Source: Leptobrachium leishanense (lineage: Eukaryota; Chordata; Amphibia; Anura; Megophryidae). Taken from it: a stretch of 64,000 bases of DNA. The notes below the pieces were generated by a model. The model was not told where the DNA came from and did not search any database. It saw only the letters and a list, made by a program, of their open reading frames with translations. Every line of letters starts with the position of its first letter. Position 1 is the first letter of the stretch. The stretch spans positions 357,898,113 through 357,962,112 of the forward strand of contig CM019063.1 of the NCBI GenBank assembly GCA_009667805.1. The letters run 5' to 3'. Shown here one piece after another: positions 15,944-59,800 of the stretch. Made by a program: the position numbers and the translations under genes.

Positions 15944-16130
15944 GCTTTGTGTTTGTTGATTGCTGGAGGGAGGAGCCTGGATCTTTCTGGAACTCTGCTG
16001 CCTGGGAGGAGGTTGTCTGAGGCCTCTGCTCCCTGTACCCTGCCTGAGCCTCCCCTGGCTGGGGGAAGGCTGGGGCTGACCCTGCCTGGATTTTTACCTT
16101 CTTGCCTTCCCTGTTTCCCCCTCTGCTACC

Positions 16131-30362: not shown

Positions 30363-31094
30363 TGTCATGCCTCACCGCCGCTGGCCGGCCCGGCGCTCCC
30401 CCTTGCGGCTCCGGGGTCGGCGTCTCCTTCACCTCCGTCTCTGCGCTGTATGCGCGCGCCGCCGGCGTTCCCTAGTTACCTCTCCCGGCGGCGCGACGTC
30501 ACAGCTCCCCATGTGACCTCCATGAACCAATCAGCAAGCAGGGCGCTAGATTTAAACCTGCTTTCCCCATTTCTCAGTGCCCTTTCGTGGTTTTAGCTTG
30601 CTAGACCGTTTGGTGCTATTTTCTGTGATTCCTATTTGACTTTCTGTGCATGACCTGGCTTTTGGCGACCGACTCTGAGTATCTCCGTATCCCTCTGACC
30701 CGGCTATTGTGTTTGACGCTGCATTTGGTTTTTCCCTGTGAACTGATCTGGTTTACTACCCACTATCACTTAACCCAGCCACTTTAAGGACTGGTATTGT
30801 GATTAGTGTTCGGGGTTTTCCTGGTTACCTGTGTATCTACCTTGCTTATTATTTGACTTACGCGTACAAGCTTGACGTACACTCTCTGGTGCTGCTTACT
30901 GTCCTGTTTATATACCAGCCACCCTAAGGACTGGTTTCTATCCTCCTGGCTTACGTCCCTGCCTTATAGGTTCACTCCTAGCTACTGCGTAACCCAGCCA
31001 AGATTAAGGACTGGTATCGCATTTAGGGTTCCTACCTCCTGTTCCGCCTTAGGGCTGACCATAGCTACCTACGGGTACGTGTGTCCGCCTGACA
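30363..31094 (+). repeat. Gypsy 5' LTR
   Basis: 732 bp, TG...CA. The interior has three related blocks (TTTAAGGACTGGTATTGTGA, CTAAGGACTGG, ATTAAGGACTGGTATCGC), each after AACCCAGCC or ACCAGCC. Compared with the 3' LTR, differences include GCCGGCG/GCTGGCG, TGAGTATC/TGAATATC and TATCGCA/TATCGTA. Confidence 0.95.
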
Positions 31095-31107
31095 TCACGA
31101 AAGGGCC

Positions 31108-31878
31108 ATGGACCTTGCAGGGACCGCTCAGCAATTATCTGGTCTTGAAAGTTGTTTGGAGGACCAAGATCATCGCCTTGATCAGTTCGCCCAGGCCCTC
31201 CAAACCCTGCTCAACCGTACTGCCCCTACCCAGGTAGAGGTTTCCCCTCCAGTGAATCCTCCCCCTTTTGAGCCAGTCTCTGTGCCTACTTCTTATCCTA
31301 ACTTACTACCTCCGGTACGTTACGGAGGCGATCCTACCGCCTGTAGAGGTTTTCTGAATCAGATTTCCATCCACTTTGAATTAACCCCGTGGTCTTACCC
31401 TACAGATCGTGCCAAAATCGCCTTTGTCATAAACCATCTTACCGACAAAGCGTTATGTTGGGCTAACCCTCTTTGGGATACCGATAAACCTATTGTCTAT
31501 AATTACCGTGAATTTATGTCTGCCTTTCGTAGAGTGTTTGATCCCCCGGGGTGTAAAACCAATGCTGTCAAATCGTTGCTACGCTTGCGCCAGGGTACGA
31601 AATCTCTGGGTGACTATGCTCTGGAGTTCAGATCCTTGGCTTCTGAATTAAATTGGAATAATGAGGCTTTGGTAGCCGTGTTTTCTGAGGGTTTAAACGA
31701 TGAGTTGCAGGATGAAATAGCGGCCAGAGATCTTCCAGAGGAGCTAGAGGATTTAATAACCTACTTGTCTTTTATCGATGAACGCCTTCGCCATCGTAGA
31801 AACACTAAAGAGAGGGCTAAAAAACCACTGGTTAGGCAGCTTCCCCGGTTTTCTGTACCTTTGCTCCCCGAGTCTTAG
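31108..31878 (+). pseudogene. Gypsy gag (matrix/capsid), premature stop
   Basis: ATG 14 bases after the LTR. 256 codons include PPVRYGGDPTACRGFLNQIS, the capsid helices WANPLWDTDKPIVYNYREFM and LRLRQGTKSLGDYALEFRSL, and a LPEELEDLITYL stretch, all typical of chromoviral gag that packages element RNA. A TAG at 31876 interrupts. The same frame continues (PEPMQLD) until a frameshift. The CCHC knuckle CLYCGLGGHLLKGC then sits in another frame at 31956-31997. The defects could be mutations or sequencing errors. Confidence 0.9.
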
Positions 31879-32049
31879 CCTCCCCCCGAACCCATGCAAT
31901 TGGACAGTACTAAGCTCCCGACAGTGAAAAACAATGCCGACGACGTGAGGGTTTATGTTTGTACTGCGGATTAGGGGGTCACTTACTTAAGGGCTGTCCC
32001 AAACGCCCCCTGGGCCCGCTGGGAAACTCTCGTGCCTAAGTGCCTTTAG

Positions 32050-33982
32050 GGGACAGCTCTTGGGCACTTTTCCTTCATCCCCCAAACTAGAAAACAGACT
32101 CTGGGTTACGGTTACTCTGTCCTGGGAGAATTCCCGTAACCCGGTACAGCTCTATGCCTTAGTCGACTCTGGTGCTGCCGATAACTTTATCGACTTAGGC
32201 TTCGCTCGTAAACATGCTATACCCCTTGTTGAAAAGAGGACACCGCTACTCGTACAAGCCATTGATGGTAGACCCCTCGAAACCCCTTTTGTTTTGTTTG
32301 AAACTCAGAACATTTCTGTTGGGATAGGATTGTGTCATAAAGAGAACATGTTCTTCCATGCTATTACTTCCCCTTCCTATCCTATCGTACTCGGTTACCC
32401 CTGGTTAACCCGTCATAATCCTGTCATTGATTGGCGGGCCCGTCAGATAGCGAGGTGGGGCAAGGATTGTATGACTTCCTGCATTGAGATTCCCCTATCC
32501 GTCAATGTCTTGAATATACCTACAGCTCCTCCTCTGACCACTACCATTCCTACCCCATACTCTGACTTGGCACCTGTATTCGACAAAAGAGAGGCCGATA
32601 GGCTACCCCCACATCGTTCTTACGATTGCGCCATCGACCTTCTTCCTGGTACTACGCCTCCTAAAGGGGTTGTCTACCCTTTGTCTGTTAAAGAGCATAA
32701 GGTTTTGGAGGAATACATCACTGATTCTTTGAACAAAGGGTTTATTCGTCCTTCCTCCTCTCCCGCTGGGGCAGGATTTTTCTTTGTTCAGAAAAAGGAG
32801 GGTGATCTCAGGCCCTGCATTGACTATCGAGGGTTGAACAAGATCACCGTTAAAAACGCCTACCCCATTCCACTCATCCCCGAGCTCTTTGACCGTCTGA
32901 AACACTCCAAGATCTTTTCCAAATTGGATCTCAGAGGAGCGTACAACTTGATTAGAATCAAACACGGGGATGAGTGGAAAACCGCGTTCAACACCAGGTT
33001 AGGGCATTACGAATATCTGGTCATGCCCTTCGGTTTATGCAACGCTCCAGCAGTGTTCCAGGCATTCATTAATGATGTATTACGAGAATATACTCCCTGT
33101 TTTGTCGTGGTTTACCTTGATGATGTATTAATACATTCCCCTGATTTGAAAACCCACCCCGTACATGTACGACTCGTCTTATCCAAACTTTTGGCCAACG
33201 GTCTTTACTGTAAGCTAGAAAAGTGCTTATTTGATGTCCAACAGGTACAGTTTTTGGGTTATGTAATTTCTTCTTCCGGTTTCATGATGGACCCCAAAAA
33301 ACTGGAAGCCATTGTTCATTGGCCTCTTCCCAAGGGACTCAAGGCCATTCAAAGATTTATCGGCTTCGCTAATTATTATAGAAGGTTCATTAAGGGTTTC
33401 TCCTCCATTTTAGCACCCATTACAGCATTAACTAGAAAGGGAGGCGATACTCACAATTGGCCCTCCATTGCCCTGGAGGCTTTCGAAAGGTTGAAAACGG
33501 CTTTTTCCACTGCTCCTATACTCCACCACCCTGATCCTAATAGACCCTTCGTATTGGAGGTTGACGCCTCAGAAACTGGGGTTGGAGCTGTATTGTCCCA
33601 ACGTCCAGCTGACGATAAGCCTATGCAACCATGTGGGTTTTTCTCTAGAAAACTGTCCTCCACAGAGACCCGTTACGACATTGGGGACAGAGAACTGTTA
33701 GCTATTATATTGGCCTTAAAAGAATGGCGCCACCTCTTGGAGGGATCTACCTGTCCGTTTTCTATTATTACGGACCATAAGAATCTGATATACCTGTCCG
33801 AAGCCAAACGGTTGAATCCTAGACAAGCCCGATGGGCTCTTTTCCTTACCCGGTTTGATTTCATCATTTCTTACAGACCCGGGTCTAAAAATATTAAGGC
33901 TGATGCACTCTCTAGACAACACGAACCCTTATCCTCTCAAACATCAGCGCCCGTTCCCATAATTCCCGAAAAAAAATCCTAG
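32050..33982 (+). pseudogene. Gypsy pol part 1: protease, RT, RNase H
   Basis: The frame is open from about 32050 without a usable ATG, as expected for a gag-pol continuation. The protease is ALVDSGAADNFIDLG. RT carries GFIRPSSSPAGAGFFFVQKK, LRPCIDYRGLNKITVKNAYP, LVMPFGLCNAPAVFQ and VVYLDDVLIHS (YLDD active site). RNase H has VLEVDASETGVGAVLSQR, DRELLAIILALKEW and ITDHKNLIYL. It stops at TAG 33980 just after a run of eight A in CCCGAAAAAAAATCC. A one-base change there would restore the frame to the integrase part. Confidence 0.93.
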
Positions 33983-33987
33983 CCTCC

Positions 33988-35553
33988 TTGAGCACACAAA
34001 TTGAATCTCCATTTTGGAATCTCTTATTGTCCAAGCAGTCTCTAGCACCTCCATCCACACCTCCTAACAGACTATTTGTTCCCCCCTCTGAGGTACCTAC
34101 AGTATTACGTTTCTTTCATGAGTCTAAATTTGCGGGGCATTTCGGAGTCAAAAAGACCCTAGACTTGATTAAAAGAGACCTTTGGTGGCCTACCCTTCCT
34201 AAGGATGTAAAGGATTATGTGACCACCTGTTTGGTTTGTACCCATTGTAAATCCTCTCGTCTTAGCCCTACTGGCCTTCTCCAGCCTCTGCCTGTTCCTG
34301 AGTGTCCGTGGTCCCATGTTGCTATGGATTTCCTGGTAGAGTTAACCCCTTCTCTTGGCCATACAGTGATTTTTGTGGTTGTGGATCGCTTCTCTAAAAT
34401 GGCACACTTTATTCCCTTAAAGAAACTCCCCTCCTCAAGTGAACTGGCACTAATCTTCACTAAAGAAATATTTAGACTGCATGGTATTCCGAAAGTCCTT
34501 GTTTCTGACCGCGGCTCTCAGTTTATCTCGAAGTTTTGGAGAGGGTTCTGTCACCAGTTGGGTGTGAAACTGTCCTTTTCCTCCGCGTACCACCCACAGA
34601 CGAACGGACTAGCCGAAAGAACCAATCAAGCACTTGAGACTTATTTGAGATGCTTTATTGCAGACACACAGGACGATTGGGTTACTTTATTACCATGGGC
34701 GGAGTTTGCGTATAACAATGCTACATCACAATCGACCAAGTATTCTCCCTTTGAAATAGTTACTGGCAGGCATCCCACCATTTTTCCATCCTCGTTCTCG
34801 CCCCAGAATATTCCTGCCCTGGAGGAACATCTAGCCAATCTCCGTGTTATATGGGAGAGAACTAAGGTGAATCTTGAGTCCGCTTCTTTGATTCAGAAAC
34901 GATCGGCTGATCGCAAGCGCAGACCCCCGCCGGTTTACCATGTAGGTGACAGGGTCTGGCTCAGCACACGCCACATCCGATTAAAGGTTCCGTCCATGAA
35001 ATTTGCACCTCGATTTATTGGTCCTTATACAATACTTCGACGTATCAATCCGGTGTCTTACGCACTGCGGTTGCCCATCTCCTTGCGTATTCCCAACTCC
35101 TTTCATGTTTCTTTGTTGAAGCCACTCTCGTGCAACCGTTTTACTCGCCCTGACTCTCCTCCTCCTCCCGTGGTGGTGGACGGGACTCCCGAGTATGAAA
35201 TCGAATCCATCCTGGATTCTCGTCGTCTTCGTCGACATTTACAGTACCTGGTTCATTGGTCTGGTTATGGCCCCGCGGATCGCACATGGGTTGCTTCACG
35301 TGACGTTCATGCTCCACGATTGGTCGCCGCCTTTCATCGTCGGTTCCCCGATCGACCGGCTCCTGGCCGCCCGGTGGGCGTCCCTCACGGTGGGGGTGCT
35401 GTCATGCCTCACCGCCGCTGGCCGGCCCGGCGCTCCCCCTTGCGGCTCCGGGGTCGGCGTCTCCTTCACCTCCGTCTCTGCGCTGTATGCGCGCGCCGCT
35501 GGCGTTCCCTAGTTACCTCTCCCGGCGGCGCGACGTCACAGCTCCCCATGTGA
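33988..35553 (+). pseudogene. Gypsy pol part 2: integrase with chromodomain
   Basis: A frame of about 520 codons encodes the integrase zinc finger (HESKFAGHFGVKKTL...CLVCTHCK), the catalytic core (MDFLVELTPSLGHT, VSDRGSQFISKFW, QTNGLAERTNQ: D,D,E) and a C-terminal DNA-binding region (HVGDRVWLSTRHI-like, KFAPRFIGPYTILRRI). The chromodomain is YEIESILDSRRL...YLVHWSGYGPADRTWV. The frame runs about 150 bases into the 3' LTR. No internal stop is seen, so this half looks functional apart from being out of frame with part 1. Confidence 0.93.
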
Positions 35554-36131
35554 CCTCCATGAACCAATCAGCAAGCAGGGCGCTAGATTTAAACCTGCTT
35601 TCCCCATTTCTCAGTGCCCTTTCGTGGTTTTAGCTTCCTAGACCGTTTGGTGCTATTTTCTGTGATTCCTATTTGACTTTCTGTGCATGACCTGGCTTTT
35701 GGCGACCGACTCTGAATATCTCCGTATCCCACTGACCCGGCTATTGTGTTTGATGCTGCATTTGGTTTTTCCCTGTGAACTGATCTGGTTTACTACCCAC
35801 TATCACTTAACCCAGCCACTTTAAGGACTGGTATTGTGATTAGTGTTCGGGGTTTTCCTGGTTACCTGTGTATCTACCTTGCTTATTATTTGACTTACGC
35901 GTACAAGCTTGACGTACACTCTCTGGTGCTGCTTACTGTCCTGTTTATATACCAGCCACCCTAAGGACTGGTTTCTATCCTCCTGGCTTACGTCCCTGCC
36001 TTATAGGTTCACTCCTAGCTACTGCGTAACCCAGCCAAGATTAAGGACTGGTATCGTATTTAGGGTTCCTACCTCCTGTTCCGCCTTAGGGCTGACCATA
36101 GCTACCTACGGGTACGTGTGTCCGCCTGACA
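35400..36131 (+). repeat. Gypsy 3' LTR
   Basis: 732 bp, same length and ends as the 5' LTR, preceded by a G-rich tract GGTGGGGGTGC acting as polypurine tract. It is followed by the CTTTG duplication at 36132-36136. Confidence 0.95.
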
Positions 36132-36289: not shown

Positions 36290-36545
36290 GCAGGACATAC
36301 TAGAAAACTAGAGAAATCTCAATGTATCCTTGCTGGTAAAATACTATATAAATAAATAATATTAACATCACTGCTCTGCTGTGGAGGCATGGGTTCGATC
36401 CCAGCAAGAGCACCTCTCCAGTAAGTGTCCTTAGGCAAGACACCTAACAGTACATACTCTCCACCCAGGACATACTTGAAAACTAGAGAAATCTCAATGT
36501 ATTCTTCCTGGTAAAATCCTTTCTCAAAAAAAATAAATATATATA
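36290..36545. repeat. tRNA-derived SINE (V-SINE-like) plus a second 3' tail copy
   Basis: 36361-36540 contains GGGTTCGATCCCAG, a pol III B-box as in tRNA-derived SINEs. It is followed by AGTGTCCTTAGGCAAGACAC, which resembles the conserved core of vertebrate V-SINEs. The 3' tail GAGAAATCTCAATGTAT(C/T)CTT, CCTGGTAAAAT is also found just upstream at 36300-36350, so two tails lie in tandem. The A-box end is degenerate. Confidence 0.7.
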
Positions 36546-37764
36546 TATAAGGTTAATTTTCATATTTGTAGATTGGGTGTCAAAAACATAAATGACCACT
36601 TGGGGGCACACTTTGCTTTCAATTTACCTTGTCTTCAAAGAAACTTCATAGGACATAATACTTTTCAGACTAGAGATTTTTATACTTGTACATAATACCA
36701 ACAAAACAAAACAGCAAATACCAACACCATGTACCTAATGTGTGCAAAACATAGAAGGATTGCACTTTGAAGTGATTAAAAAGCATAATGTTGCTAGCAA
36801 CTACACTGATGATTATTCGTATAATTGTACAATCTATCCTATAGTGGTAACCAAAACCTCTAGAACAGGTACCTCAACCCCCCTCAGATATTTCTGAACT
36901 ACATCTTTCATGATTCTTACCCATCTATTGCATTGAAAGAATTCTGTGAATTGTAGCTAATCAACATCCGGGAGGTCAGATTTGGAGATCTGCTCTAGAA
37001 TCTGATAATCCTAAATATAATATACACTGAAAATAAAAAAGTTTATGGTTTTCTTATTTATGTTGGGGCAAATTTTTTTATATGGTTTTGGATCTGTTAT
37101 AAAGATATTTTTATTACTTTAACACATGGTGGGTTTCAGCTGTTAGATTTTATTACATCTAATTATAGGACTTTTGAATTTAATTATGTATTTAAATATA
37201 CAACTAATATAAATTGCTGCGTTCGGCAAAGAAAAAAGCTTTGTTGTTTTAAAATAAATTAGGAATCTAAAGATTTCACCAAAACAATCCTAAAACAAAA
37301 ATTAGAATAACTGTTGAATAAATATTTAATTAAAACAGGTAATATGTTTTACATTGAAACCTATGGGATTTGCCTGTTTAAACCTGTTGAACTGAACCAA
37401 CGAAAATCAGGCCATTTCACTGACATTTCGGTGGTGTTTGGCGTTCTCTTAACCATTACTTCTCTATGGAAAATTTTACTGCCACCGAACTGCACCATGG
37501 CGAACTGAACCACTAAAAATCAGGGCATTTCACTGAGATTTCAGTGGTGTTTGGCGATCTCTGAATAGATTATTTTGTATGGCTGGTATTTTTATTTTAG
37601 TACTGGCTGTATTTTATTTTAGTGCCAGCTGGTATTTTAATTGTAGTACTGGCTGTAATTTATTTTGGTACGGGCTGTATTTTATTTTAGTATGACTGGT
37701 AATTTCATTTTATTATAGTACCAGCTGGTATTTTTATTGTAGCACGACTGATAATATATATATA
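36546..37764. other. Non-coding DNA with old repeat fragments
   Basis: No gene seen. 36890-37010 (GAACTACATCTTTCATGATTC...GAATTGTAGCTAATCAACAT) resembles a common vertebrate MITE whose ends are mirrored ACTACA/TGTAG motifs. 37280-37560 is similar to 41800-41980 (TTTACATTGAAACCTATGGGATT, then ATTTCACTGACATTTC). 37570-37740 has a loose repeat of TACTGGCTGTATTTTATTTT. Confidence 0.5.
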
Positions 37765-38514
37765 CCGTATATACTCGCATATAAGCCGAGTTTTTTTACT
37801 CCGATTTTGAGTAAAAAAACCGCGATTCGGCTTATACGCGAGTCAAGGTATCCCGGTAGGCTGTGCTCCAATTTAGAAAGCCTGCTGCTACAGCGTGCCT
37901 CCCAGCTACTTATCACGAGGCTGGAAACGGCCGCGGCTGTGTGCGACGCACGATGATGTCATCATGCTGGAGGGGGTGGCGCCAGTGCAGCGTGCCGTTC
38001 CCGGCCTCGAGATATGTAGCTGGGAGGCATGCTACAGCAGCAGGCTGGACCTTCGTAATGGAGGCTGGACCTTCGTACGACGTCCCCGCGGGACTGAAAG
38101 AACAGAAGAGGCCAATGCCCTGGAGCAAGCTAGATGCAGTCGCAGGCCAGGGCAGCTGTAAAAAAAAATTCTATTCCGGTGACTCGTTTTTCAATATCAT
38201 ATCGGAGGACAGGCAAGAGGCAGGATGACAGAGAGCACTCTCCGAGTGCCGAGTTGATGGTGAGTAACAGTTGCACTGTGATACACTCATACACACCGCA
38301 TATTACTGTGAGTTTTATTGCTATGGAGCTCTGTGATACGCTCATACACACCGCACAATCTTGTGAGTTTTATTGCTGTGGATTTCTCTTTGCCAGTGGC
38401 TGCTGCATTTCCCACTTAGGTTTATACGCGAGTCAATAAGTTTTCACAGGTTTTTTGGGAAAAAGTAGGGGGGTCGGCTTATACACGGGTCGGCTTATAC
38501 CCGAGTATATACGG
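37765..38514. mobile_element. 750-bp TIR element with CCGTATATACTCG ends and TA duplication
   Basis: The ends CCGTATATACTCGCATATAA and TTATACCCGAGTATATACGG are inverted copies. TA flanks both sides (37763-37764, 38515-38516), as in Tc1/mariner-type insertions. Sub-terminal inverted motifs GGCTTATACGCGAGTCAA and TTATACGCGAGTCAATAA lie inward. The interior (37860-38400) contains mirrored AGCTGGGAGGC and CCTCCCAGCTAC blocks and no transposase. It is non-autonomous. Confidence 0.85.
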
Positions 38515-39956: not shown

Positions 39957-41783
39957 CCGTGTTTCCCTGAAAATAAGACACTGTCTTATATTTTTTTGGA
40001 CCCCAAAAATCACACTAGGTCTTATTTTCGGGGGTAGGTCTTATATTTAAATTTTTTTAATGCACAACATACATTTACTCAATTACAATCATGTCATCTT
40101 CTTCTGGAACATCGTCATAACTCTCCAAATCCTGAATTCTGGCCTTATTTTCTTGTAACTCCATTTCCTTTAGAACCATTGACCCCAATCTTTCATGCCT
40201 AGCAATAGAGCTCTCTTTAAATGAACAGTTCTTGTCCAAGTAGCCTGCTTGTAGTGCATTGGCAACACAGGTGTCAGTGATTTTATCCCAGGAATTCTTC
40301 ACCCAAGTCACAACCTCTTGAAGGCCAGGCTTCACAAAGTTTCCACGCTGATTTCTCTCCATATTCTATGTTCAATGAAATCATTGATTTCCACGTGCAA
40401 GTGATCCTTGAATGGCTTGTTTATTGCAATATCCAGAGTCTGGAGATAGGCAGTCATTCCTGCAGGAATCATTATTTGATCTATTCTTCTCTCTGCAAGG
40501 AAGTTCTTCATGTCTTTAGCGCGGTGAGTGCTGGCTGAATCCCAGACTAGCAGGCCTCTTTGACCACCTCGCAAAATAAGTGGCAGCATTAAATCGACCC
40601 ACTTCCTTATAACTGCTTGTGTGCACCAGGCTTTTTCTGTTTCAAGAACATAAATCCCTGAAACACGTTCTATCTTATCTTTTTTGCCCTTATTGATGAT
40701 TAGTGGTGTGACTTCCTGTCCATCCAGACGAATTGCCAAAATACAGGTAACGCGTGCACTTTCGTAACCAGTGGAGGGAATGTAGATTGACGAGGCACCC
40801 ATCTGGTTTATTGTTGTTTGAGATCCTTGGCCCAGAAACACTGCAGTTTCATCCATGGCAATCATGTTGGAGAGTTGGTATTTAGAAAAGTCGATGCCAT
40901 CAACAAAGGACTTGAATGCAAGTGCACGTTTAACAATTTCAGCATCTTCCAGCTTGAACAGTGTTGTCGATCTTCTTAGAGACAGTTCATAATGCTGGAG
41001 GAAGTTATCCAGCCAATGTTGTGATGCTTTGAAATCTTCTGGGGATATATCTAACTTTGGTGCCATTTCAAGGGCAAATGCTTGAATATCAGCCCTGCGC
41101 ACAACCAAAGCATTTGCTCTCCTCTCAGCAATCCATTCACAGGTGATGTCTTCCAAATCTGTAAATAATGTTGACCGGCCTGATCCACACTTGCGCTTCT
41201 TAGCATTTCCCACATCCACCTGTTGACTGAGGTTACTGTAATGTGGTCGCCATTTTCGCACCAATCGGAGATCCAGCATCTTCTCTTTGCAGTAAGCTGT
41301 AAGATTCTTGCCAATCGAGTCCTCTACAATTCCTTTCTTCTACTCGACGGAATAGCTCTTTCTTTTTGCACTCATCTTCTCTGGGGGTCAAAATACCGGT
41401 ATGTTTCACTAGCGATTCCTCACAGGCGGTGTGTATCTGGTATCACTCCGCCTGTGACAGAAGCCGGCGCTAGAGGAAGCAGCTCTGCTTCCTCCACTGC
41501 CTCCTCACTTTCTCTGGCGCCGGTATTGCTCCCCTGCACAGCCATGCAATCCATCCTGCTGCACATAACCCGCAAAATACGAGCTTTGCCATGAAGGGAA
41601 TCGCAATCCTACGCAGCATACATACGGTAATGCAGCCTCTGGCGCCGGAAAATCTCCCCCGCGGCTCCGCAACTTGGTCTCGACTAGGTCTTATTTTCGG
41701 GGGTAGGTCTTATATTTTGCGTAGATATGAAAAACCCACTAGGTCCTATTTTCGGGGTAGGTCCTATTTTCGGGGAAACACGG
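39957..41783 (-). mobile_element. pogo/Tigger-type transposon with CCGTGTTTCC ends
   Basis: The termini CCGTGTTTCCCTGAAAATAA and TTTTCGGGGAAACACGG are inverted copies and are flanked by TA (39955-39956, 41784-41785). The sub-terminal motif TAGGTCTTATTTTCGGGG(G)TAGG appears once near the left end and three times near the right end (41685-41775), perhaps transposase-binding sites. The interior encodes a pogo-type transposase on the minus strand. Confidence 0.9.
40075..41375 (-). pseudogene. pogo-type DDE transposase with one nonsense and one frameshift
   Basis: An ATG at 41375 starts MSAKRKSYSVE, followed by an in-frame TAG (41340-41342). The frame continues through a helix-turn-helix region into LVRKWRPHYSNL. 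A CENP-B-type second HTH follows (ITCEWIAERRANALVVRRAD, ASQHWLDNFLQHYELSLRR). The catalytic core has MIAMDETAVFLGQ (Asp), LLVWDSASTHRAKDM (Asp) and AYLQTLDIAINKPFKDHL (third Asp, pogo DDxD style). At about 40360 the frame shifts and continues as GNFVKPGLQEVVTWVKNSWD to an acidic tail ending at 40075. Only these two lesions are visible, so inactivation is fairly recent. Confidence 0.87.
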
Positions 41784-41799
41784 TATCTTAGACTTTTTG

Positions 41800-42240
41800 C
41801 TGCAAATGAAAACAATGAACGTAAACAGTTGCTAAAACATTTACTAAAAACTGGGAATATTTTTTACATTGAAACCTATGGGATTCACCTGTTTAAAGCT
41901 GTTGAACGAACCACCGAAAATATGGGCGTTTCACTGACATTTCAGTGCTGTTCTGCATTCTCTGAATAGATTACTCATAGACAGGTAGTGGTTAGTTAAA
42001 CAAGTGTAAGTGAAACGGTATAATGAATTGATCTGGATAAACAAAATCAATTTTATACCGTTTCGTTTCATTCTGAATCCATTCATTTTTCGGACAATTT
42101 CAGACCAATCAATTTGTTTTCCGGACCGTTTCAGACAGTTTCGGATGGAGTCGATTTGGTTTTACGGAAGCACTTCCGAAGAACGAAACAGTAAATTTTG
42201 TCTCAATTTTTTAATAAAAACTAAATAAAACACACATGTC
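41800..42240. repeat. Two interspersed repeat fragments
   Basis: 41800-41980 matches 37280-37560 (GTTGCTAAAACATTTACTAA, TTTACATTGAAACCTATGGG, CTGACATTTCAGTG). 42010-42240 has TTCGGA/CCGTTTC-rich DNA like the end of 2601-3110, finishing in AATAAAACACACATGTCTAA. No coding content. Confidence 0.55.
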
Positions 42241-43554
42241 TAATGCCAATATGCCCTCATTTAAATATCCGATCAGAAAAATGGCCAAATTATGGTCGAA
42301 AAAGCTGCAGATTTTGGCAGTGGAGCTAAATTACATGTTTACTTTTGCATACTTAAATTCAAGGCTTTTCATGGGATTGCCTACAGTAAATAGGTGCTTT
42401 TAGAATATTGTATACCTCTACACACCCTGACCACTTGTATATTTTGAAGTGATCAGTTTATGTGGATTGCCCCTCTCTCCCTTCCAGGACCATCTGGCTA
42501 GAAATGTTGTGTGAAGCGGTGGAGTTTCCATCACCTCACACAAGTGTCCCCAGGTAGTTGGAATTTCTAATTTTCCAGCTGCTGGTAACCAATTCAGGTC
42601 ACCAATGATGTCAGCATGCCATACGTACTGACATTGTTCTTTCTCAGGCCCCCCACAATAGCAAGTTTCCTGGGGGAAACGGCCATTGGAGTGTTGCTGC
42701 ATGTGCATGCTGCTCCAATTCATCATTCTATGCAGGTGTTACAGAATTTGTGTAAATCTGAGCGATGCGCAATTTGAATATCCTATGCATATGGCCTTCT
42801 ACACCTCTTGTTTCCATCCTATGTCCATTTATCTGTATCTCGTTCCCTTTCGTTATTATAAATGCACGACAGGAAAATCTATGACACAGTACTTTACATT
42901 TTAATTTGGGGTGTAACTCCATTAACTTTGTTTAGGCAGCACCTTCCTCAATAGTTTTTTCCAAGGGGCCCTTTAAGATAATGAAACAAAATGTCTTTGT
43001 AGCCAATATTTGTCCTCACACAACAGAACATTGTTTTACTAAAAGAAATGAATAATGTTTATAATTTCTTGGTAGATATTGTAAGTTATAACTTGGCTGA
43101 GCTGAAATCCGAGGCTCTCTCATAACAGATCTTCATTCTTTGGAAACCATGAGATGATTCAGCTGTTTGGGATACACATTAATTCCAAGAGCAGTGGTAT
43201 AGTAGTCCATAATACTTGTTTATAAGAAGATGACTGTGATGGTTGCCAGACATACCCTCAATCCTTTTGTCTGAGTTTTTTTTATCCTACTTAGTTGGAC
43301 TAGAGCCGCCAACCCCATGTGCCTCAGTTCCCAGACTTTTCTGTATCTTAGAAGGATTCAGCTTAGACTAGAACTAATAAGGTGTGCAATTAGTTTCGCT
43401 CCAAATACAAATTCGGATGAAATTCACCATTCTCGTATTTCGGGAGCATTTCCAAAAACAAAATATCGTACATCTGAAAAATTCTGGATCGATCCAAAAT
43501 TTCGGTGCGATTCAGATCGATTCGCAATATGAATGATTCGGATCTGATACAGGG
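42241..43554. other. Intergenic DNA downstream of the FoxD-type gene
   Basis: No convincing gene. 43390-43540 has the CGAATTC/TTCGGA-rich repeat character seen elsewhere (TTCGGATGAAATTCACC, GATTCGGATC). The rest looks single copy. A 102-codon open frame on the minus strand at 42418-42726 has no recognisable domain and I do not call it. Confidence 0.45.
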
Positions 43555-43852
43555 TTATTCAAAGAGAGTCGATGTGGCCCAAATTGTAACCGAACGCTGA
43601 ATTTCAGCGAACAGTGCCATTTCGGGGCCATTTGACTGTTCAGAGAGCAGGCAATTCGTCAAATTGTGGAAGGTTTGGCAGTGCTGCCTAGCATTGTGTT
43701 GGATATCCAGGGACTCTGTACACACAGTCCTCAGTTCTGAGTGGAGAATATTGGGGGCTGATACCTGAAATAGTGCTCTATAGGTCCAGGGCTGGAAGTA
43801 TGCTTGAGGGTTTGGAGGAGGACTCACCTCTGGCTCCTTTGGTTTGCCTATG
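43555..43852 (-). pseudogene. Displaced C-terminal coding end of the FoxD-type gene
   Basis: On the minus strand, immediately beyond the solo LTR and its CTATG duplication, the FoxD-type reading frame continues open for about 97 codons to a TAA at 43555. It begins GKPKEPEVSPPPNPQ, then a PWTYRALFQ stretch. With the duplication counted once, the codon at the break becomes ATA-GGC, so frame and sense agree. Proline-rich K(P/H).(E/D)P tails follow the conserved hydrophobic motif in FoxD4/FoxD5-type proteins, as far as I recall. The last third enters a repeat-like sequence, so the original stop may have been earlier. Confidence 0.6.
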
Positions 43853-44788
43853 TGTTATATAACTGATTCAGCGTTCAGGGTTCAGGGTTCAGAGGTTCGA
43901 GCTAGTGTGCGGTAACACAAGAGTAGAGCAGACACATATATACTGAGGGATTTATTAAATAAAAAGAGACAATAGTGATAAGCAGGTGACTCAGAATGAA
44001 GTAATATACTAAGCAATGAAAGAGCAAATACTAGATAGATAATAACTAAACAACAAGGAGGAAAAATAACAGGGATAACTAAGAGCAGAATTAAGCAGAG
44101 GGAAAAAGAGGTTGACTGAAGTACATGTAATAATGGGACAGAAGCAGAGGGACGCTACAGGAATAGGCTGTTTAGATAGTATCCGAGAAAAAGACAAGAA
44201 AGGGTTAATTTAAAGAGGACGCATAGAACATTGAAGATGACAAAGCAGGTATAGTAATTAATTCAGAACCATTGGTATAGACAGAAGCAATGAAGGTACT
44301 GGGAGTTGAAGTCCAGGATGTAATATGGCTGTAGGTACCAGGGAGTGATGTAAAGTCCAGAGAAATAATAGAATACTTGCAGCAAAATAAAGTCCTTGGG
44401 AAATCAGAAACAAGATGCTCAAGCGTGGTATCAAAAGGGCAAATCCATAGGCATATCCAAGTCAAAGTCCAATAGATCAAAGGGTCACAGGCTAGCAGGC
44501 AAAGTCCATTTATTTTCCAAGTAATAGATCCGGTACACAGGTATACTTAGCGGACAGCAGGAACACACTGAACCAGCAATGTCCAAACGATGCAGAAGCA
44601 CTGCATGATGGGTCTTTACCCCTTTAGTAGGGAGAGCTAGGTGATCAGTGAAAACACCTGAAGCAATAGCAGAACCATAGATGGGATCAGGTGTTTTGGT
44701 AGAATAGATCAGGCAGGAATTGTAAGGATTAATGTGTTTTCTTAGGCTTTTTGCCTTTCTTACGGGCACGGCGTCTTGGGGTATGACA
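43853..44788 (-). mobile_element. Solo LTR (936 bp) inserted in the FoxD-type gene, CTATG duplication
   Basis: On the minus strand it begins TGTCATACCCCAAGACGCCG and ends CAGTTATATAACA. The 5-bp direct repeat CTATG stands on both sides (43848-43852, 44789-44793). It is the same family as the solo LTR at 6589-7515 by its first 60 bases and length. It lies in sense orientation to the gene and supplies the gene's present last nine or so codons and stop. Confidence 0.93.
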
Positions 44789-45653
44789 CTATGATACTGT
44801 CTATGGTGAAGGAGCTCTTGGGTCTGATAGAGGCATTAGAGATGGCAGGTCTGATTGGTATGGGTGCTACATGGACCCCCAGAGGTGACCTGAGCCCCCT
44901 GTTGATTGGGATCTCTGGGGGCATATATGCATGTCCTGGAACCATGAGACGTTCAGTTGGTGTCCAGCAAGATAGAGGGTTTGGGTGGTTGAAGGTGTGG
45001 GAATGTATGGTTCCACGTGTGAGTCCATAAGGATGGAAATAGGGGAAGTGCGGGTGGAACAAAATAACTCCATCCTTTGGGAAATCCGGGGTTTGCCTCT
45101 TGAACCTCGATTTTCTTCCCAGGAGACTACCGCTGTCAAACATGTGTTTGGATTCTGGGTGCAAGGTCCAGTAATTTCCCTTTCCTGGGTCACCAGGTTC
45201 CCTGGGGATCTTGATAAAGCAGTCATTGAGGGATAGGTTGTGTCTGATGGAGTTCTGCCAAGCTGGAAACTTGTCCTTGTAGTAGGGAAATTTTTTCCTG
45301 ATGAAGTCACAGATGCCACTGAGGGTAAGTTTCCCCTTTGGGCACCTCGTGATGGCCATTGAGATCAGAGCAATGTAGGAATAAGGTGATTTGACACAGC
45401 TCTTCTGGTTCTCTCCTGGAGCTGAAGAGGTCTCATGGGGTGGTCCACTCTCCCTCTCCTCGAAGTCACTCTCGCTCTGGGATGTAGAATCCATGCCTCC
45501 GACGTCTGAATCTGAATAATTTGAGTGGAGATCAAGCTGCTTGTGGCCATGGTCCAGATGGTCCACATCCTCAGGAAGCCTTACATGGAGCTGCTCCTGT
45601 GTTCTGGTCATAGTGGTGACAGATAGCGATGTATAGTTGTCTCCAGGTATCAT
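44760..45653 (-). CDS. FoxD-type forkhead transcription factor, C-terminus replaced by an LTR
   Basis: A 297-residue frame starting at ATG 45653; an in-frame GTG two codons upstream is not needed. The acidic N-terminus has [20 protein letters not shown]. The forkhead DNA-binding domain (about residues 85-185) reads [54 protein letters not shown] (recognition helix) and [49 protein letters not shown] is the FoxD class pattern. Wing 2 ([20 protein letters not shown]) has drifted from the usual DP.SEDMFDNGSFLRRRKRF, suggesting a fast-evolving FoxD4/FoxD5-like gene. A C-terminal motif SSFTIDSII leads straight into solo-LTR sequence. A polypyrimidine-AG (TCCTTTATTGCAG) precedes the ATG by about 10 bases, so a 5' non-coding exon is possible. 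Confidence 0.88.
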
Positions 45654-46618
45654 TCGCACAGCTGCAATAAAGGATCACACCCGACAGAGCAGTGACTTTC
45701 TGATGCCCTGTATCAGTCCCTGGTCCTGTTTGTAACCGAGCTTCTCTGGGACTGAGTGTGAAGAGATATGAGCAGTGAGCACCTACATTAGAATAGGAGC
45801 TAAGACAAGCACAGGACTCACATTCTGATAGGATCTTGCACCTGAAGGGTGGTCCTGATCACTATTAAACAATGACAAATAACACCCCCTATCCTACCCC
45901 CCCCCCCCCGGCCAACCACCCAGGCTGTCTAATGAGTTTCAGCATTGTTTTCTATTCTGTAAGCAATCTGCCCCCATCCTCACCCTCCTCCAACCTCCAG
46001 GGGGTATGCACCCTGTGATTTACAGCTCATTCACAGTTAGATCTAAGCCTCCACAGACAGTAAAACAATACACACTTGGATTTAAGGCCAATCTGATAAA
46101 ACGATACTGTGATGTTTGTCTTCTCGCCCGTCTGGCACCTAAAGGGTTACATGGTTTGGCTATTTGAAGCCTCTGTGGACATGACCACATTATATGTGAC
46201 AATTATCTGGCATGACATAAATTGGAGGGGCATTTAAGACGTTTCCACGGTGGCACTGGGCTCCTGTCCTGTGTGCTGCTGGACCTGAAATTCTGTTATC
46301 CTTAAGGAATGACTGAGATGGGCTGCCATAAAAACAATGCATGGGATGAGCCAGTCTGACAGTACAGATCATTCATACTAACATCGGGTTTTAGAGTTAA
46401 AAGAAAATAGGATTACTTTTCTAGATACCGCATGTAATTTAAACATTTTCTGTGAGGTTGAGAAGATGCAATTAATGTATGTATTTTTACATTTTCAACA
46501 TCCTCATACACTGACTGTGATTTGGAGTCATCCATCCATAGTTTTATTCAAAAATACATATTTTATATTTAGAACTAAAGTATAAATACTTTATAGATCA
46601 CACACTCATATATATATA
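45654..46618. other. 5' flank of the FoxD-type gene
   Basis: About 1 kb upstream of the gene (on its minus strand) without recognisable genes or transposons. A 14-C run lies at about 45898-45910. No clear TATA box was identified. It probably holds promoter or 5' UTR sequence, but nothing specific can be assigned. Confidence 0.4.
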
Positions 46619-48501
46619 TGTCGGGTATATTACACACAAAAGAGAATTTTAAAATGGACGCCTGTAGCCATTTTGTTTTAAAGACAGTTTTTCTTTCAAA
46701 ATATTCTCTAGGTTTAGAAATGAACAAGATTTTTTTTTACAAAGTTCATTCCTGGGTTAAGAAGTCCCAGACATGAAGGAACCTAGAATGAATGAATGTG
46801 AGATAATGTTAAGACATGTTATAAGTAAATTTATTGGTTTGTCTGAAGTTCTAAAACAAAAGAGATTTTGTCTTTTGGGTATAGGAATAAGAGAAAATAT
46901 TCTGTAATATAGAATTATATTCACAAAATATATGTTTATAATCAAGGTATATTTTATTATAATTACAGTATGAAATATATACTCCAAAATATTGTAGAAA
47001 GTATATAATTGGTAAATAATAAAATTACTAAAGAATAGATTCTGTGAGTTAACCAGGAAGAATTTAGCTGATAAGGCTCTAAGCAACCAAAAGGGAGGAG
47101 AGCTATAAATCAGGTATGACAGATGGAGACAGAGACAGTCTAGTTAAAAGACAAGGCTCTTTGTTAAGTTAGTCTGACCTTTTGACCCGAGATAGGACTA
47201 TTAAAAAGAAATGGTGGAATTAATATAAGAAGTGCAATACTGCCCTCTAGAGGATAGTAAAAATAATTAACCATGACGTCAAATTGGCTATAATAGGCGG
47301 CAAAGATTCTTTTGTAAAGTCAGTCAGAGATGTCAGCAGACAGACTCACACCGCAATGCATTCGGATGTCCCGTACATATGACACTCTGAGAAGTCAGGA
47401 GATTCCAGCGGAGAGGCTCACATCGCCATGCACTCAGACATTCATTATACATGACACTCTGAGGAGTCGGGAAATTGCAGCATTCAGACTCACATCAGAC
47501 TCACATCACGATGCAGGCAGATCCTAAGACATGAGGCAATCAATATTCTCACCAAATCTCTAACTCACATGCATTGATTATCTCATATCGATAATTTTCA
47601 CATATTCCAAAACAAAGCATCACATAGAAAATTCCAAGGCAGACTCATCAACATCCAAATTGGACAGGTAATGTATGAAATAAGGAATTAATGTAAAAAT
47701 ATATTTGTAGAGATTTTGCAACGTAGACTGAGACTTCTCGGATACGGTTAAAATCCAAATTCTAAGTAATTCTATTCTGCAGATAGAAATATGAAGAAGT
47801 GGATATAAGGATTTATTCCTAAAGAAATGTTGCAAGATTGATACCAATATATATATTGAATTTGGAAATTACTGTGATTAAAATTAATAAGCAAGGAATT
47901 ACATAACTACAAAATAAAAAGCAGAAGATTAGAAGTTTAATTCTCGAGATTAGGGGAGGATTCACTAAATAAGTTTTTATTACTTATTATTAAATTAGCT
48001 CATCTTTTGTTGATCCATGTAGCAGAGATATATATATATCTATAAGAGCTGGCTGGTTAAACATTGTTTGCTGGGAAATGTATGTTGTATTAAGCAGAAA
48101 TATTTATTGACCATTTGTGTATTAGTTACTAACTGATAAGGTAAATGATATTAATCATATATGCAGTTACTAACCGGAGATACATATATTGTGAAGCTAG
48201 TTTTTATATGCTGATGGGTTGTGGTTTGTAAATTTTTGTTCATGATATGAGATTCGAAACTTTTTTGTATACGTAATAAATATATATATATTTTTATCCG
48301 ATTATTGATTATTGTATTTTTTAAAGCAAAACACAGACAATTAAAAGAATTCAGGATAATTTCTAAGAGATATAGACGATTGATATTTGTGTCTCGTATA
48401 AGTTTCTTATGAAATAATAATCCCTGATATATTGGAGGCTTGGCTGATAAATCCAATATATACAAACGTGTTGTATTCACGTGCAGAGATTATATCCGAC
48501 A
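46619..48501. repeat. 1.9-kb non-coding element, TGTCGGGTATA ends, copy 1
   Basis: It begins TGTCGGGTATATTACACAC and ends TTATATCCGACA, so the outer 11 bases are inverted copies within TG...CA ends. The first 80 bases include AAAATGGACGCCTGTAGCCATTTTG. Most of its length is collinear with 56821-59850. It has no protein frame. It may be a long solo LTR or a non-autonomous TIR element; the AT-repeat flanks make a target duplication unreadable. Confidence 0.7.
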
Positions 48502-50992: not shown

Positions 50993-52612
<1,620 letters not shown>

Positions 52613-53071: not shown

Positions 53072-54187
53072 CCCTTTCGCTACTGAGCCTTTTCACACCT
53101 CTGTGCTGAGCTCCTTTTTACTGGTTTCGCTCATCATGTTTAACCGCGTTTTGAAGACATATTATATATCGTTCTTTCCGACAGACTTGGCAGATTCATA
53201 ATATATCATTATTATATGTATACGTTATGTCCTGTCTGTATATTATAACAAAAACTGCAATAAAATTAGAATTTTCAATAATTTACAACGTGTAAAGTGT
53301 TTTTTTAACATTTTAACATGCAAGCGTTTGCGGTTATATTTTCTATGGGTTGCGCTTATTAAAAAAATTAGAAAAGGGGAATCGTTACTTTTTTTGGGAA
53401 AATTATGTGTTTTTTAGCAAACGCCCCCCATTAGAAAAAATCGTTAGTGCAGCATCATTGTTCACATTATAATTGAAATGGGAACAATATTGCTGCACTA
53501 ATAATACAAAACAAACAAAAACAATTTTTTATAATTTTTAATTATTTTGTTTACATTGTACATGATCATGTTTGGTATCATTGGAAAGGCCATGCTCTGG
53601 CCATTAACCCCTAGCTGTCACGGATCGGGAGATAGGGGGTTCCAATGAACCCCCTATCTCCACCATAGGTGGCTGCAAGGGGTTAATTGCAAAACTGGCG
53701 CCATTGCACTATGCGCGATGACGCCAGTCGCTAGGGGGATATCCCGGAACCTTGGCCGACATCCAAGATGTCGGCCAGCTCCAGGAGGGGACCGCGATTC
53801 GGCGCATGTTAGCACCATATCGCGATCCAGCCCCCCAGGGGTTAAAGACAGGCGCCGCTTGGAAGGGCAGGCTGTGCCCTTCCAAGCGGTACCTGTCTTT
53901 ACCCGATGGTCCACACGGATGGGGAGGGGGGAGAGGTCCGAAGGCACCTTCAGGCACCTTCCCCGCAGTGGCGGGGGGGTGCATGAAATAGACCTCATCG
54001 CGCAGGCGCGAAGACGTCTATCGTGCCCGCCAGGGTCCGGGAGGCTGGGGTGACATCGGGGGGCCGCCGCGATCGTCCGGAATCCCGGCCGATCGCCGCT
54101 GCAAAAGGAGGACGCACTCAACGCGTCCTCCGCTGCGAAGTGGCCATGCGGCAGGACGCGCTGAGCGCGTCCTCCGCATGGAAAGGG
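53072..54187. mobile_element. piggyBac-type non-autonomous element at TTAA
   Basis: CCCTTTCGCTACTGAGCC at the left and GCATGGAAAGGG at the right, with TTAA on both sides (53068-53071, 54188-54191). Internal inverted blocks include GAGATAGGGGGTTCC/GGAACCCCCTATCTC, GACATCCAAGATGTC and GGACGCGTTGAG/CTCAGCGCGTCC. There is no transposase. Confidence 0.85.
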
Positions 54188-54224
54188 TTAATAGCCATAT
54201 ACAGTACATACTGATCGTTTAGCT

Positions 54225-54410
54225 GACAGTGTTTCCCAACCCTGGTCCTCAGGACCCACTAACAGGTCAGGTTTGCCAAATATGTGATGCACAGCACAGG
54301 TGATATGATTTTCTGCCCAGTGATTGCAGGATTCAGTCTGCATTTCCCCAAGGTGATCTCCAAAATCTGGCCTGGTTGAGGTTCCCGAGGACAGGAGTTG
54401 AGAAACCATG
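54225..54410. mobile_element. hAT-type MITE (CAGTGTTTCCCAAC family)
   Basis: GACAGTGTTTCCCAACCCTGGTCCTC is mirrored by GAGGACAGGAGTTGAGAAACC. The outer 8 bases are GTTTAGCT on the left and GTTTAGCG on the right, a 7/8 match to a hAT-style 8-bp duplication. This repeat type, which ends in a 'GGTCCTCAGGAC' inverted arm, is common in amphibian and fish genomes. Confidence 0.75.
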
Positions 54411-54439
54411 GTTTAGCGGGTTCCATTGCTGGATAGGTA

Positions 54440-56048
<1,609 letters not shown>

Positions 56049-56190
56049 TATATGGTTATGCACATCAGCAATTATAACACATGCAAATGTGCAATGTTTG
56101 TATTGCATTTATAAAGTAATGTTAGATTAATACTAAATAAATATTTTCATTTGAGTATTGTCAGAAAAGGATGTGCAAAATGTAGATATG

Positions 56191-56372
56191 CAGGGTTATT
56201 CAGGGAGAGATGAAAAGCAGGAGAATGACTGGAGAATGGAAAAATCTAGGTCAAAATAGCCTATTTGGAAAATGAGATAAATGGGAGAATTTTTCCGGTT
56301 TGGCTATTTTGGCCTAGAATTTTCCATTCTCCAGCCATTCTCCTGCTTTTCACCTCTCTCTCAATAACCCTA
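56191..56372. mobile_element. 180-bp palindromic MITE, copy 3
   Basis: CAGGGTTATTCAGGGAGAGA mirrored by TCTCTCTCAATAACCCT. The halves AGGAGAATGACTGGAGAATG and CATTCTCCAGCCATTCTCCT are inverted copies, giving a hairpin of about 180 bases. Confidence 0.87.
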
Positions 56373-56820
56373 ATAGTGAAAGCTGTGCATCCTTAACCCC
56401 TTCACTATTAGGCAATTTTTGTTGGAAAAAATGCTATCTTAACCTTTTTTTTAAAAAAACTTGGGATGTGAAGCTAACAATTAAATAACAGGTAAAATAT
56501 AAGTTTTGCACAGAAATTGGTATTCTGTGATGGTTAAAAAATTAAAACAATGTTAATTTGCTCATTTGTTAATTTTTCATGTACTCATTTATCCTTTACA
56601 GAAATTGTTTAAATATAAGATTCTGAGCTCTAGATGGTGTCCTTTATCTTACACAATTTCAAACGGGGTCTGCACTATCATCATTCAGGCAGAAAGGAGC
56701 TTTGTGTTTAGATACAGTAAGTCTGATAGAGATAATTAATAAAACAACTGGTCAGATATCCTGTTTACAGGGATTTGTAGTCATCATAATGAGATTATTA
56801 GCAATGCAGCTTCCAAGACA
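56373..56820. other. Non-coding DNA, nothing recognised
   Basis: AT-rich sequence between a MITE and the second TGTCGGGTATA element. I see no gene or repeat. Confidence 0.4.
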
Positions 56821-59800
56821 TGTCGGGTATATTGTAATGGAAAAATTAAAATGGATGCCTGTAGCCATCTTGTTTTAATGTAAAGTTTTTCTTTTTCAAT
56901 TTTCCCTAGTTTTAGAAATGGACAGAGCTTTTTTTTTAAAATAGTTCATGGCTGGGTGAACCAGAGAGTTATGAGGGTTTCTATAAATGCCAGACATGAT
57001 GTTATAGACGATAAAATGTCTCTATTTGATATAATGCTGAGCTAAGTGCCAGACATGTCATATTTAAATTTATTGGTTTGTTTTAACAAGTTTTTTTTAA
57101 AAAAAAGATATTTGCTTTTTGGGTATAGGAACAAATTTAAAATCTCTTTGCAATTGTATAATTATATTCACAAAATATATTTTTATAATCAATATATTTT
57201 ATTATATTTACAGTAGGAAATAGATGTTCCAAATATTTGTAGAGTATAATTGGTAAACAGTATAATTACTGAAGAATAGAATTTCTGTTGATTTTAACTA
57301 GAAAGGAATTTACTTAGTAGATACTTTGAGAGGAGTGGAGATATTAATTTAATTTTGACAGGAGAGACCAAAAGTCTAGGATTGAATATAGGGTCTTTGT
57401 TAAGACAGATTAATCTTTGACCTGAAATAAGATATATTAACCCTTTCGCTGCTGAGGCGTTTCACGCCTCTGTGCTGAGGTCATATTTACCGGTTTTGCT
57501 CATCATGTTTAAATGCGTTTTGAAGGCTTATTTTAGTATATGACCCAGACATATTATATATCGTTCTTTCCGTCAGACTCGGCAGATTAATAATATGTCA
57601 TTATTATATGTATACGTCATGACCTGTCTGTATATTATAACAAAAAATGCAATAAAATATGAATTTTCAATAATTTACAACATGTAAAGTGTATTTTTTT
57701 CACATTTTAACATGCGAGCAATTGCGGTTATATTTTGTATGGGGTGCGCTTGTTAAAAAAATTAGAGATGGGGTCTCGTTACATTTTTTTTGGGGGGAAA
57801 TTACGCGATTTTTAACAAACGCATCGCATACAAAAATCGTTAGTGCAGCATCATTGTTCACATTATAATTGAAATGGGAACAATATTGCTGCATTAACAA
57901 ACCAAAAAAAAAAAACTTGTTTATTTTTTTTTTTATATTTTTTTTTAAATATTTTTTTTTTTATTTTATTTTATTTTTTTAAAAACTTTTTTCACTGTGG
58001 TGTTTGGTATCGTTGGAACGGCCATGCTCTGGCCGATCCAACAGTACCAAACATTAACCCCTAGCTGCCACGGATCGGGAGATAGGGGATTCATTGGAAT
58101 CCCCTATCTCCACCGTTGGTGGCAGCTAGGGGTTAACTCCAGGACTGGCGTCATCGTGCTATGCACGATGACGCCAGTCCTCAGGGGGAGTTCCTGGAGG
58201 CTTGGCCGACATCCAAGATGTCGGCCAGCTCCGGGAAAGGATCACGAACCGGCGCTTTTCAGCGCCGATTCGTGATCCGGTTCCCCAGGGGTTAATGAGA
58301 GCCACCGTTTGGAAGGGCAGGCTGTGCCCTTCCAAGCGGTGCCTGTCTTAACCCCCTGCTCCCCGGCGATCGGGAGGGAGAGAGGTCCGAAGGACCTCCC
58401 CCCTCCCTTTCAGGCGCCTCCTCCACACATGCGGGGGGCGCCTGAAATAGATGTCATCGCGTAGCCGCGATGACATCTAATGTCCCCGCCGGGCTCCCGA
58501 GTGCTGGGCTGACATCCAAGATGTCAGCCCGCACCGGGGGGCGCAGCAATCCGCCGGAATCCGGCGGATTGCTGCCTCCTGTGCTCGGACGCGCTGAGCG
58601 CGTCCGTAGCACAGGAGAACCACTTGGCTGGACGCACTGAGCACGTCCATAGCAGCCAAGTGGTTAAAATTTAATTGTGGAATTAATTTGAAGAGCAACA
58701 CTGCCCTCTTGAGGCATAGTAAATATTATATTAATACAGAGAATGTAATATTTAAATGAAAGGGGTAGAGTGTCAGTGACGTCAAATTGACTATAATTGG
58801 AGCTGTACTGTTCGTTGCAGGGCATTCAGACCATCCCAGGACAATGCACTTCATATCATCCCAAGACACGATCATGCATTGATTCAGAGATTCAGATCAT
58901 TCCAACACACAATGCATTCAAGATATTACATATCACTTAATCAGGTCCACACCTCTAACTCACATGCACTGAATATCTGACTTTGATAATTTTCACATAT
59001 TCCAAAAACAATATATTACATAAAGAATATTCAAAGACTGTAACTCATTGAATCCAGATTGGAGAGGTAATGTATGAAAGCTATTTAAGGAATTAATGTA
59101 ATTATATATATATCTGGAGTATTTCTTGCAACAGATAGATCCAGAGTCTTCAAAATATTTCTAAATCTGCAGATAGAGATATGAAGAAGAATCGGATATA
59201 AGGATTTTATCCTGAAGAAATTGTTGCAAAGTGAAATACAAATATATATATATATATTGAATTTGGAAATGACTGTGATTGAAATTAATAAGCAAGGAAT
59301 TATATAACTACAATATAAAAAGCAGAAGAATAGACGCTTAATTCTCGATATTAGGGGAGGATTCACTAAATAAGTTTTTATTACTTATCATTCTAGAAAT
59401 AGAATAAGTGATAGCTCATCTTTTATTGATCCACGTAGTATAGAGAGATACATATATCTCTACAAGATCTAGCGTGTTAAACATTGGTTTGCTGGGAAAT
59501 ACAGGTTAATTGTTTCCGTTAAGCAGAAATGTTTATTAACCATTTGTGTATAGTTACTAACTGATAAAGTAAATGATATTAATCATATATGCAGTTACTA
59601 ACAGGAGATACATATATTGGGAAGCTAGTAATCTATGTGCTGATGGATGGATATGTTGTTTATAAATCTTTGTTTATGATATGAGATTTGAAACTTTTTT
59701 GTAAACGTAATAATACGTTTTTATCCGATTATTGATTAGTGTGTTCTTCAAAGCAAAACACAGACAATTAAAAGAATTTAGGAGAATTTCTAGGAAATAT

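Follow-up and report, generated by a model that had tools for sequence, protein, structure and literature searches.

The window, i.e., the whole 64-kb stretch of Leptobrachium leishanense DNA analysed here, contains a FoxD-type forkhead gene on the reverse strand whose coding sequence is divided by a solo LTR. Past the LTR the gene continues for 62 codons and is then replaced by unrelated sequence. The features are listed below in the direction of the gene, with positions given as those of the window.

44760..45653 (-), truncated FoxD5 (FoxD4L1-type) open reading frame (ORF); first ATG at 45653-45651, 297 aa up to the TAA at 44762-44760
45138..45392 (-), forkhead DNA-binding domain, open (Pfam PF00250, E 1.9e-35)
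44790..44810 (-), Eh-1 motif FTIDSII (Groucho/Grg4-binding type), kept in the truncated ORF; its X. laevis counterpart in the alignment is FSIENIM
44789..44793 (no strand), target-site duplication CTATG, gene-proximal copy
43853..44788 (-), solo LTR, 936 bp, Ty3/Gypsy-type, in gene-sense orientation, ends TG...CA
43848..43852 (no strand), target-site duplication CTATG, distal copy; present once in the LTR-free contig C3213 (10263-10267)
43663..43848 (-), severed FoxD5 tail, 62 codons GKPKEPEV...ARQHCQTFHN; 43663-43852 is identical to the intact gene at 190 of 190 positions
43765..43788 (-), FH2-like segment WTYRALFQ, left outside the truncated ORF; its W is aligned with W308 of X. laevis
43663..43692 (-), Motif 6-like segment ARQHCQTFHN, no longer part of the ORF, with the sequence beyond it replaced
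43555..43662 (-), unrelated sequence that substitutes for the final 11 codons and natural stop; the frame is open by chance

From stop to stop, the truncated frame extends over 45674..44760 (-) and comprises 304 aa, in which the forkhead is the sole Pfam domain. The best match of this domain among solved structures is 2hfh, listed as GENESIS (E 2.4e-51), and its recognition-helix segment (18 residues) is intact in the LTR copy. The ORF ends with SSFTIDSII followed by VSYPKTPCP and TAA. Herein, the last nine codons, which the first-pass annotation had described as LTR, are indeed read from the LTR except for their first base. The Eh-1 motif is whole; the codon that closes it is contained in the duplicated CTATG.

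The same assembly contains the gene without the LTR on two small contigs, C3213 (48,712 bp) and C4555 (46,371 bp). On the gene-proximal side, window 44789-46619 aligns with C3213 10267-8436 at 99.0% identity, and on the distal side window 43663-43852 corresponds to C3213 10452-10263 without a single difference. The two alignments overlap only in C3213 10263-10267, which is one CTATG. C3213 is thus the empty site; hence, the insertion is real, and the state that preceded it is known. The chance probability of one 5-bp match is ~1/1000; it is the single CTATG of the LTR-free contig that settles the insertion. The perfect duplication around a 936-bp LTR, which had been read from the window alone, therefore holds with both copies and all coordinates, and so does the insertion in sense orientation into coding sequence, on which the empty site and the strand of the LTR agree.

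The intact frame occupies C3213 9382-10488 including the stop, with 368 aa from stop to stop and 361 aa from the first ATG, and ends with ARQHCQTFHNPLHSRMNMGAF before its stop codon. C4555 carries the same open frame with one synonymous coding difference. The statement that an LTR has simply replaced the C terminus of the gene is, thus, corrected by intact LTR-free copies in the same assembly. The GKPKEPE tail, for which frog proteins had been proposed as a search target, is present as SIIGKPKEPE both on the intact contigs and in protein P0001. This protein, L. leishanense by its source, equals the intact ORF over a run of 324 residues that includes SIIGKPKEPE. Both of its ends differ from the intact frame, which is probably due to the gene model. 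As the best protein match (96%), P0001 was also considered as the orthologue of a relative, e.g., L. ailaonicum, and this was rejected in view of its identity to C3213 of its own genome over the 324 residues.

Past the insertion, the frame resumes as GKPKEPEVSPPPNPQ..., beginning with GKPKEPE, and is open for 99 aa over 43854..43555 (-). The nearly 100 open codons noted before are hence present, but only 62 of them are FoxD5. Homology with the intact gene ends at 43663; the window copy has neither the final 11 codons and their stop nor the natural 3' flank. The first 114-115 bp beyond this break match two other places in the genome at 77-79%, and a Tc5-type transposase frame is located to the left of it (40332-41339). 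Terminal repeats of an element bordering the break at 43662 were not found within 41500-43700. With the natural 3' flank as the query (C3213 10470-14470), the 40 of 1193 candidates that were scored include full-length matches on C3213 and C4555 only; further matches are short repeats, and none of these 40 places the flank on a chromosome scaffold.

The LTR belongs to a dispersed family with at least 41 matches in the genome, at least 30 of them spanning LTR positions 1-936; these counts include the query and its copy on chromosome scaffold C4 and come from the 40 of 440 candidates that were scored. Among the matches listed, the closest relative outside C1/C4 (C1 being the scaffold of the window) is 98% identical. 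A relative on C1959 possesses an LTR pair ~10 kb apart, and pieces of a long frame in its internal stretch match reverse transcriptase, RNaseH, and then integrase, on the strand that equals the gene-sense orientation here. It is this order that identifies the element as Ty3/Gypsy-type. The insertion shares with Ty3/Gypsy solo LTRs the TG...CA ends, the 5-bp duplication, the dispersed family, and a two-LTR relative with reverse transcriptase, RNaseH, and integrase. What sets it apart is its position in the reading frame of one copy of a developmental regulator; it is otherwise ordinary. Solo LTRs usually originate from recombination between the two LTRs of an element. On its sense strand, the 936-bp LTR has AATAAA twice, at positions 275 and 833, with TG-rich sequence 3' of the latter; the antisense strand also contains AATAAA twice. 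A sense AATAAA may be usable as a poly(A) site. The suggestion that the LTR supplies the stop and possibly polyadenylation is, thus, borne out by the TAA for the former and compatible with the sense AATAAA for the latter.

The assignment to the FoxD type agrees with the Pfam match of the forkhead (E 1.9e-35) and with a tree of 24 rows, which is without the Hyla isoform. Here, the Leptobrachium pair of intact and LTR copy falls on the FoxD5 side, separated from Leptobrachium FoxD1-3 (100/99), and adjoins the FoxD5 of Spea and Pelodytes (90/84); Leptobrachium L004, L005, and L006 were named FoxD1, FoxD2, and FoxD3 by eye. Scanning the genome with the Pfam forkhead model yielded 70 matches. The 29 best of these 70 were covered, namely the window copy and 28 other loci, and no second conserved FoxD5 was found among them. 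Because these 29 were covered, the FoxD5 (FoxD4L1 group) on the window, C4, C3213, and C4555 looks like the only one in the assembly. Queried against the 28 loci, Spea FoxD5 scores highest on C3213, C4555, and C4 (241, 240, and 223 bits), followed by L006, L005, and L004 (200, 189, and 188 bits). The order by identity is the reverse—47% over ~305 residues for the FoxD5 copies versus 61-79% over 114-188 residues for FoxD1-3—because the forkhead domain of Leptobrachium FoxD5 has drifted. One cobW match is located on C1, ~124 Mb from the window copy; cobW/CBWD adjoins FOXD4 in mammals.

Like FoxD5/FoxD4L1 of other frogs (Xenopus foxd4l1; XFD-12'), the Leptobrachium gene is a forkhead gene with one open frame and an Eh-1 motif at the matching place. 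Its stem branch measures 1.05 changes per column as opposed to 0.17 and 0.25 for the tips of Spea and Pelodytes, and 22 of 103 forkhead columns deviate from the frog majority, compared with 0-5 in 18 other frog sequences. The acidic-blob core EIDILG is not recognisable: where the N-terminal acidic blob (IDIL/IDVL plus glycine) would be aligned, both the intact and the LTR copies have VDHLD followed by a gap. The intact Leptobrachium FoxD5 is itself, thus, very diverged. Since the 22 deviant columns are common to the intact and LTR copies, most of the forkhead drift is older than the LTR. Drift in wing 2 had been said to fit relaxed selection or fast evolution; two extra changes in invariant columns are seen in the LTR copy only.

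PMC3627651 describes the effector regions of Xenopus FoxD4L1: activation proceeds through the N-terminal acidic blob, Grg4 is bound by Eh-1, a C-terminal helix/Motif 6 adds repression, and a conserved motif with a tryptophan, FH2, lies between Eh-1 and Motif 6. The numbering therein matches X. laevis P0038, in which FSIENIM starts at aa 285 and the tryptophan is aa 308. FH2 and Motif 6 are recognisable in the intact copies and absent from the protein of the LTR copy, which sets the latter further apart from frog FoxD5. The predicted loss of the repression motif is therefore true in part: it is wrong for Eh-1, which is kept directly upstream of the insertion, and right for the second, additive repression region, with FH2 cut off too.

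Between the LTR copy and C3213, 357 codons contain 8 nonsynonymous and 3 synonymous changes. For the LTR copy versus intact, dN is 0.0099 and dS 0.0130 over 350 codons, which gives a dN/dS of ~0.76, and the forkhead domain alone yields 0.52 (4 nonsynonymous, 2 synonymous); these estimates rest on 11 coding changes in total. Neutrality is not rejected, and neither is an omega of 0.4 (P 0.11-0.23); 0.25 is a borderline case (P 0.02-0.06), and 0.1 is rejected (P 0.0002-0.0012). Two substitutions, P97S (KPPYSY to KSPYSY) and R187G in wing 2, both in Spea numbering, occur in the LTR copy only, in columns that are invariant in the other FoxD5 rows and in Leptobrachium FoxD1-3. The tree tip of the LTR copy is 0.039 long versus 0.0045 for the intact copy; codons 61, 128, and 232, judged by eye from the alignment, look like changes on the intact branch. 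Transitions and transversions among the changes of the LTR copy number 40 and 39, and this ratio of ~1 hints at some consensus error. Counter to such error, gene and LTR show no mismatch between C1 and C4 in 2081 bp. The pattern points weakly to relaxed constraint on the truncated frame.

Window 28245-57300 recurs on another chromosome scaffold (G000 C4:188191485-188220532), with 29,058 bp at 99.92% identity. The differences amount to 11 mismatches and 6 indels, with 7 of the 11 mismatches at 36346-38226. A 100-N gap marks the start of each copy, and the two form a dovetail, i.e., an end-to-end overlap. A 29-kb interchromosomal duplication with two broken loci was considered and rejected, as both copies end exactly at these gaps. 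The repeat is probably one sequence that was assembled twice and scaffolded to two chromosomes and, read in this way, lends no independent support to two broken loci. A region so demonstrably troubled raises the thought that the LTR junctions or the break at 43663 are themselves artefacts of long-read assembly. We regard this as very improbable, given that a random chimera would not be expected to show a flawless 5-bp duplication together with precise TG/CA ends and a target that is single-copy in the empty site, although this argument from the junctions protects the break at 43663 less.

The relation of the LTR copy to the intact copies was assessed in five shared blocks of 9128 columns. Unique changes number 79 in the LTR copy, 12 in C3213, and 35 in C4555; by block, the LTR copy has as few as 0 (185 columns) and as many as 27 (1085 columns). 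Overall, the LTR copy differs from the intact copies by ~1%. Over 16.3 kb, 77 mismatches and 45 indels (≤26 bp), several of which fall in complex sequence, separate C3213 from C4555, and these two look like haplotypes of one another. The genomic DNA of the assembly is described as coming from one male. Three distinct sequences from a single male, albeit in an assembly with known errors, would suggest at least two loci. In addition, six more insertion-type stretches of 1.1-5.2 kb are found upstream on the side of the LTR copy, and none on the side of C3213 over C3213 3-10267. We infer from this that a duplicate is to be favoured over an allele.

The competing account assumes one heterozygous FoxD5 locus, with an LTR haplotype on C1/C4 and the intact haplotype or haplotypes retained as the extra contigs C3213 and C4555. 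It would require three haplotypes from the described single male and would have to place all six large upstream differences on one side. It nevertheless fits a difference of ~1%, which allelic diversity could reach, and the most upstream block (3883 columns), where the LTR copy and C3213 are as close (16 differences) as C4555 and C3213 (25). C3213 and C4555 moreover start <1 kb apart in sequence common to C1 upstream, as haplotype branches might, and no chromosome scaffold carries the natural 3' flank among the 40 of 1193 candidates scored. The closeness of the upstream block and the troubled assembly keep a single heterozygous locus alive as the main, though less probable, alternative.

The reading toward which we lean, by a modest degree, is that the LTR copy represents a recent, decaying duplicate of FoxD5 with intact copies in the same assembly. 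Herein, a Ty3/Gypsy element inserted between Eh-1 and FH2 of one FoxD5 copy, creating the 5-bp duplication, and its interior would later have been lost by recombination between its LTRs. If transcribed, the copy would encode 297 residues with the forkhead and Eh-1, nine LTR codons, and the LTR stop, and the LTR could offer a poly(A) signal to this truncated transcript. The open frame suggests a gene of one exon, in which case no exon junction would follow the stop to trigger nonsense-mediated decay. The LTR copy would then decay while the intact copies carry any function that is needed. Of the two options raised in the first-pass annotation, a tolerated truncation or a dying duplicate, the latter is the better one, with both the duplication and the decay inferred. 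Decay rather than use of the copy is suggested by the second break in the tail, the near-neutral coding change, the two hits in invariant columns, and the many insertions nearby.

A working truncated repressor would instead retain the forkhead and Eh-1 without FH2 and Motif 6, be weakened yet Groucho-dependent, and take its stop and poly(A) signal from the LTR. The intact Eh-1 motif and recognition-helix segment, as well as the sense AATAAA, are consistent with such a protein, and in Xenopus the contributions of Eh-1 and Motif 6 are additive according to PMC3627651, so that the loss of one would leave partial activity. Nevertheless, KSPYSY and the wing-2 glycine sit at invariant FoxD columns, the dN/dS is not far from 1, transposase and retrotransposon frames lie all around the LTR copy, and intact copies are present; hence, we consider a functional repressor decidedly unlikely. 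Improbable, too, is a wider proposal in which FoxD5 has been freed from its neural-plate role in moustache toads and, in addition, an LTR-terminated repressor with Eh-1 only is expressed, either from a duplicate copy or from a segregating haplotype. It would draw on the only FoxD5 found being without the activation motif and on a fifth of the DNA-binding domain being changed.

With a recent, decaying duplicate as the preferred reading, the locus offers a clean case of natural truncation in a neural transcription factor that has been dissected in detail, since the assembly also contains the precise empty site. The LTR splits the Groucho-binding Eh-1 from the second repression region, which had been defined through Xenopus mutants. 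It also serves as a warning that a chromosome scaffold may show a broken developmental gene while the intact version resides on small contigs. The truncation is an ordinary event in an unusual gene, and the fast evolution of the intact FoxD5 may matter more, as it raises the question of whether a central neural-ectoderm gene can be relaxed in a frog. In primates, genes of the FoxD4 group multiplied by segmental duplication, and some FOXD4-like copies decayed; the Leptobrachium event is independent of these. Among the literature matches listed, nothing on FoxD4L1 duplication or loss or on solo LTRs in coding sequence was found for FoxD5/FoxD4L1/FoxD4 in Leptobrachium.

Several further elements are located in the window. 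A Gypsy element with a chromodomain integrase spans 30363-36131; its LTRs (30363-31094 and 35400-36131) are 99.2% identical, and therefore it is probably a young insertion. A GC-rich LINE-like element at 16080-24642 contains a 1480-aa frame with two ZCCHC3-type RNA-binding domains, followed by a 1138-aa endonuclease-reverse transcriptase frame. Two stop-free transposase frames of Tc1/Sleeping Beauty type, 347 and 355 aa long, are found at 51218-52261 and 54791-55858, and their elements are ~98% alike within the window. Relative to C3213, the stretch 57441-58663 is an insertion with TTAA on both borders, presumably as in piggyBac-type elements, and 54137-56376 is an inverted block compared with C3213 7198-7825, with a Tc1-type element inside.
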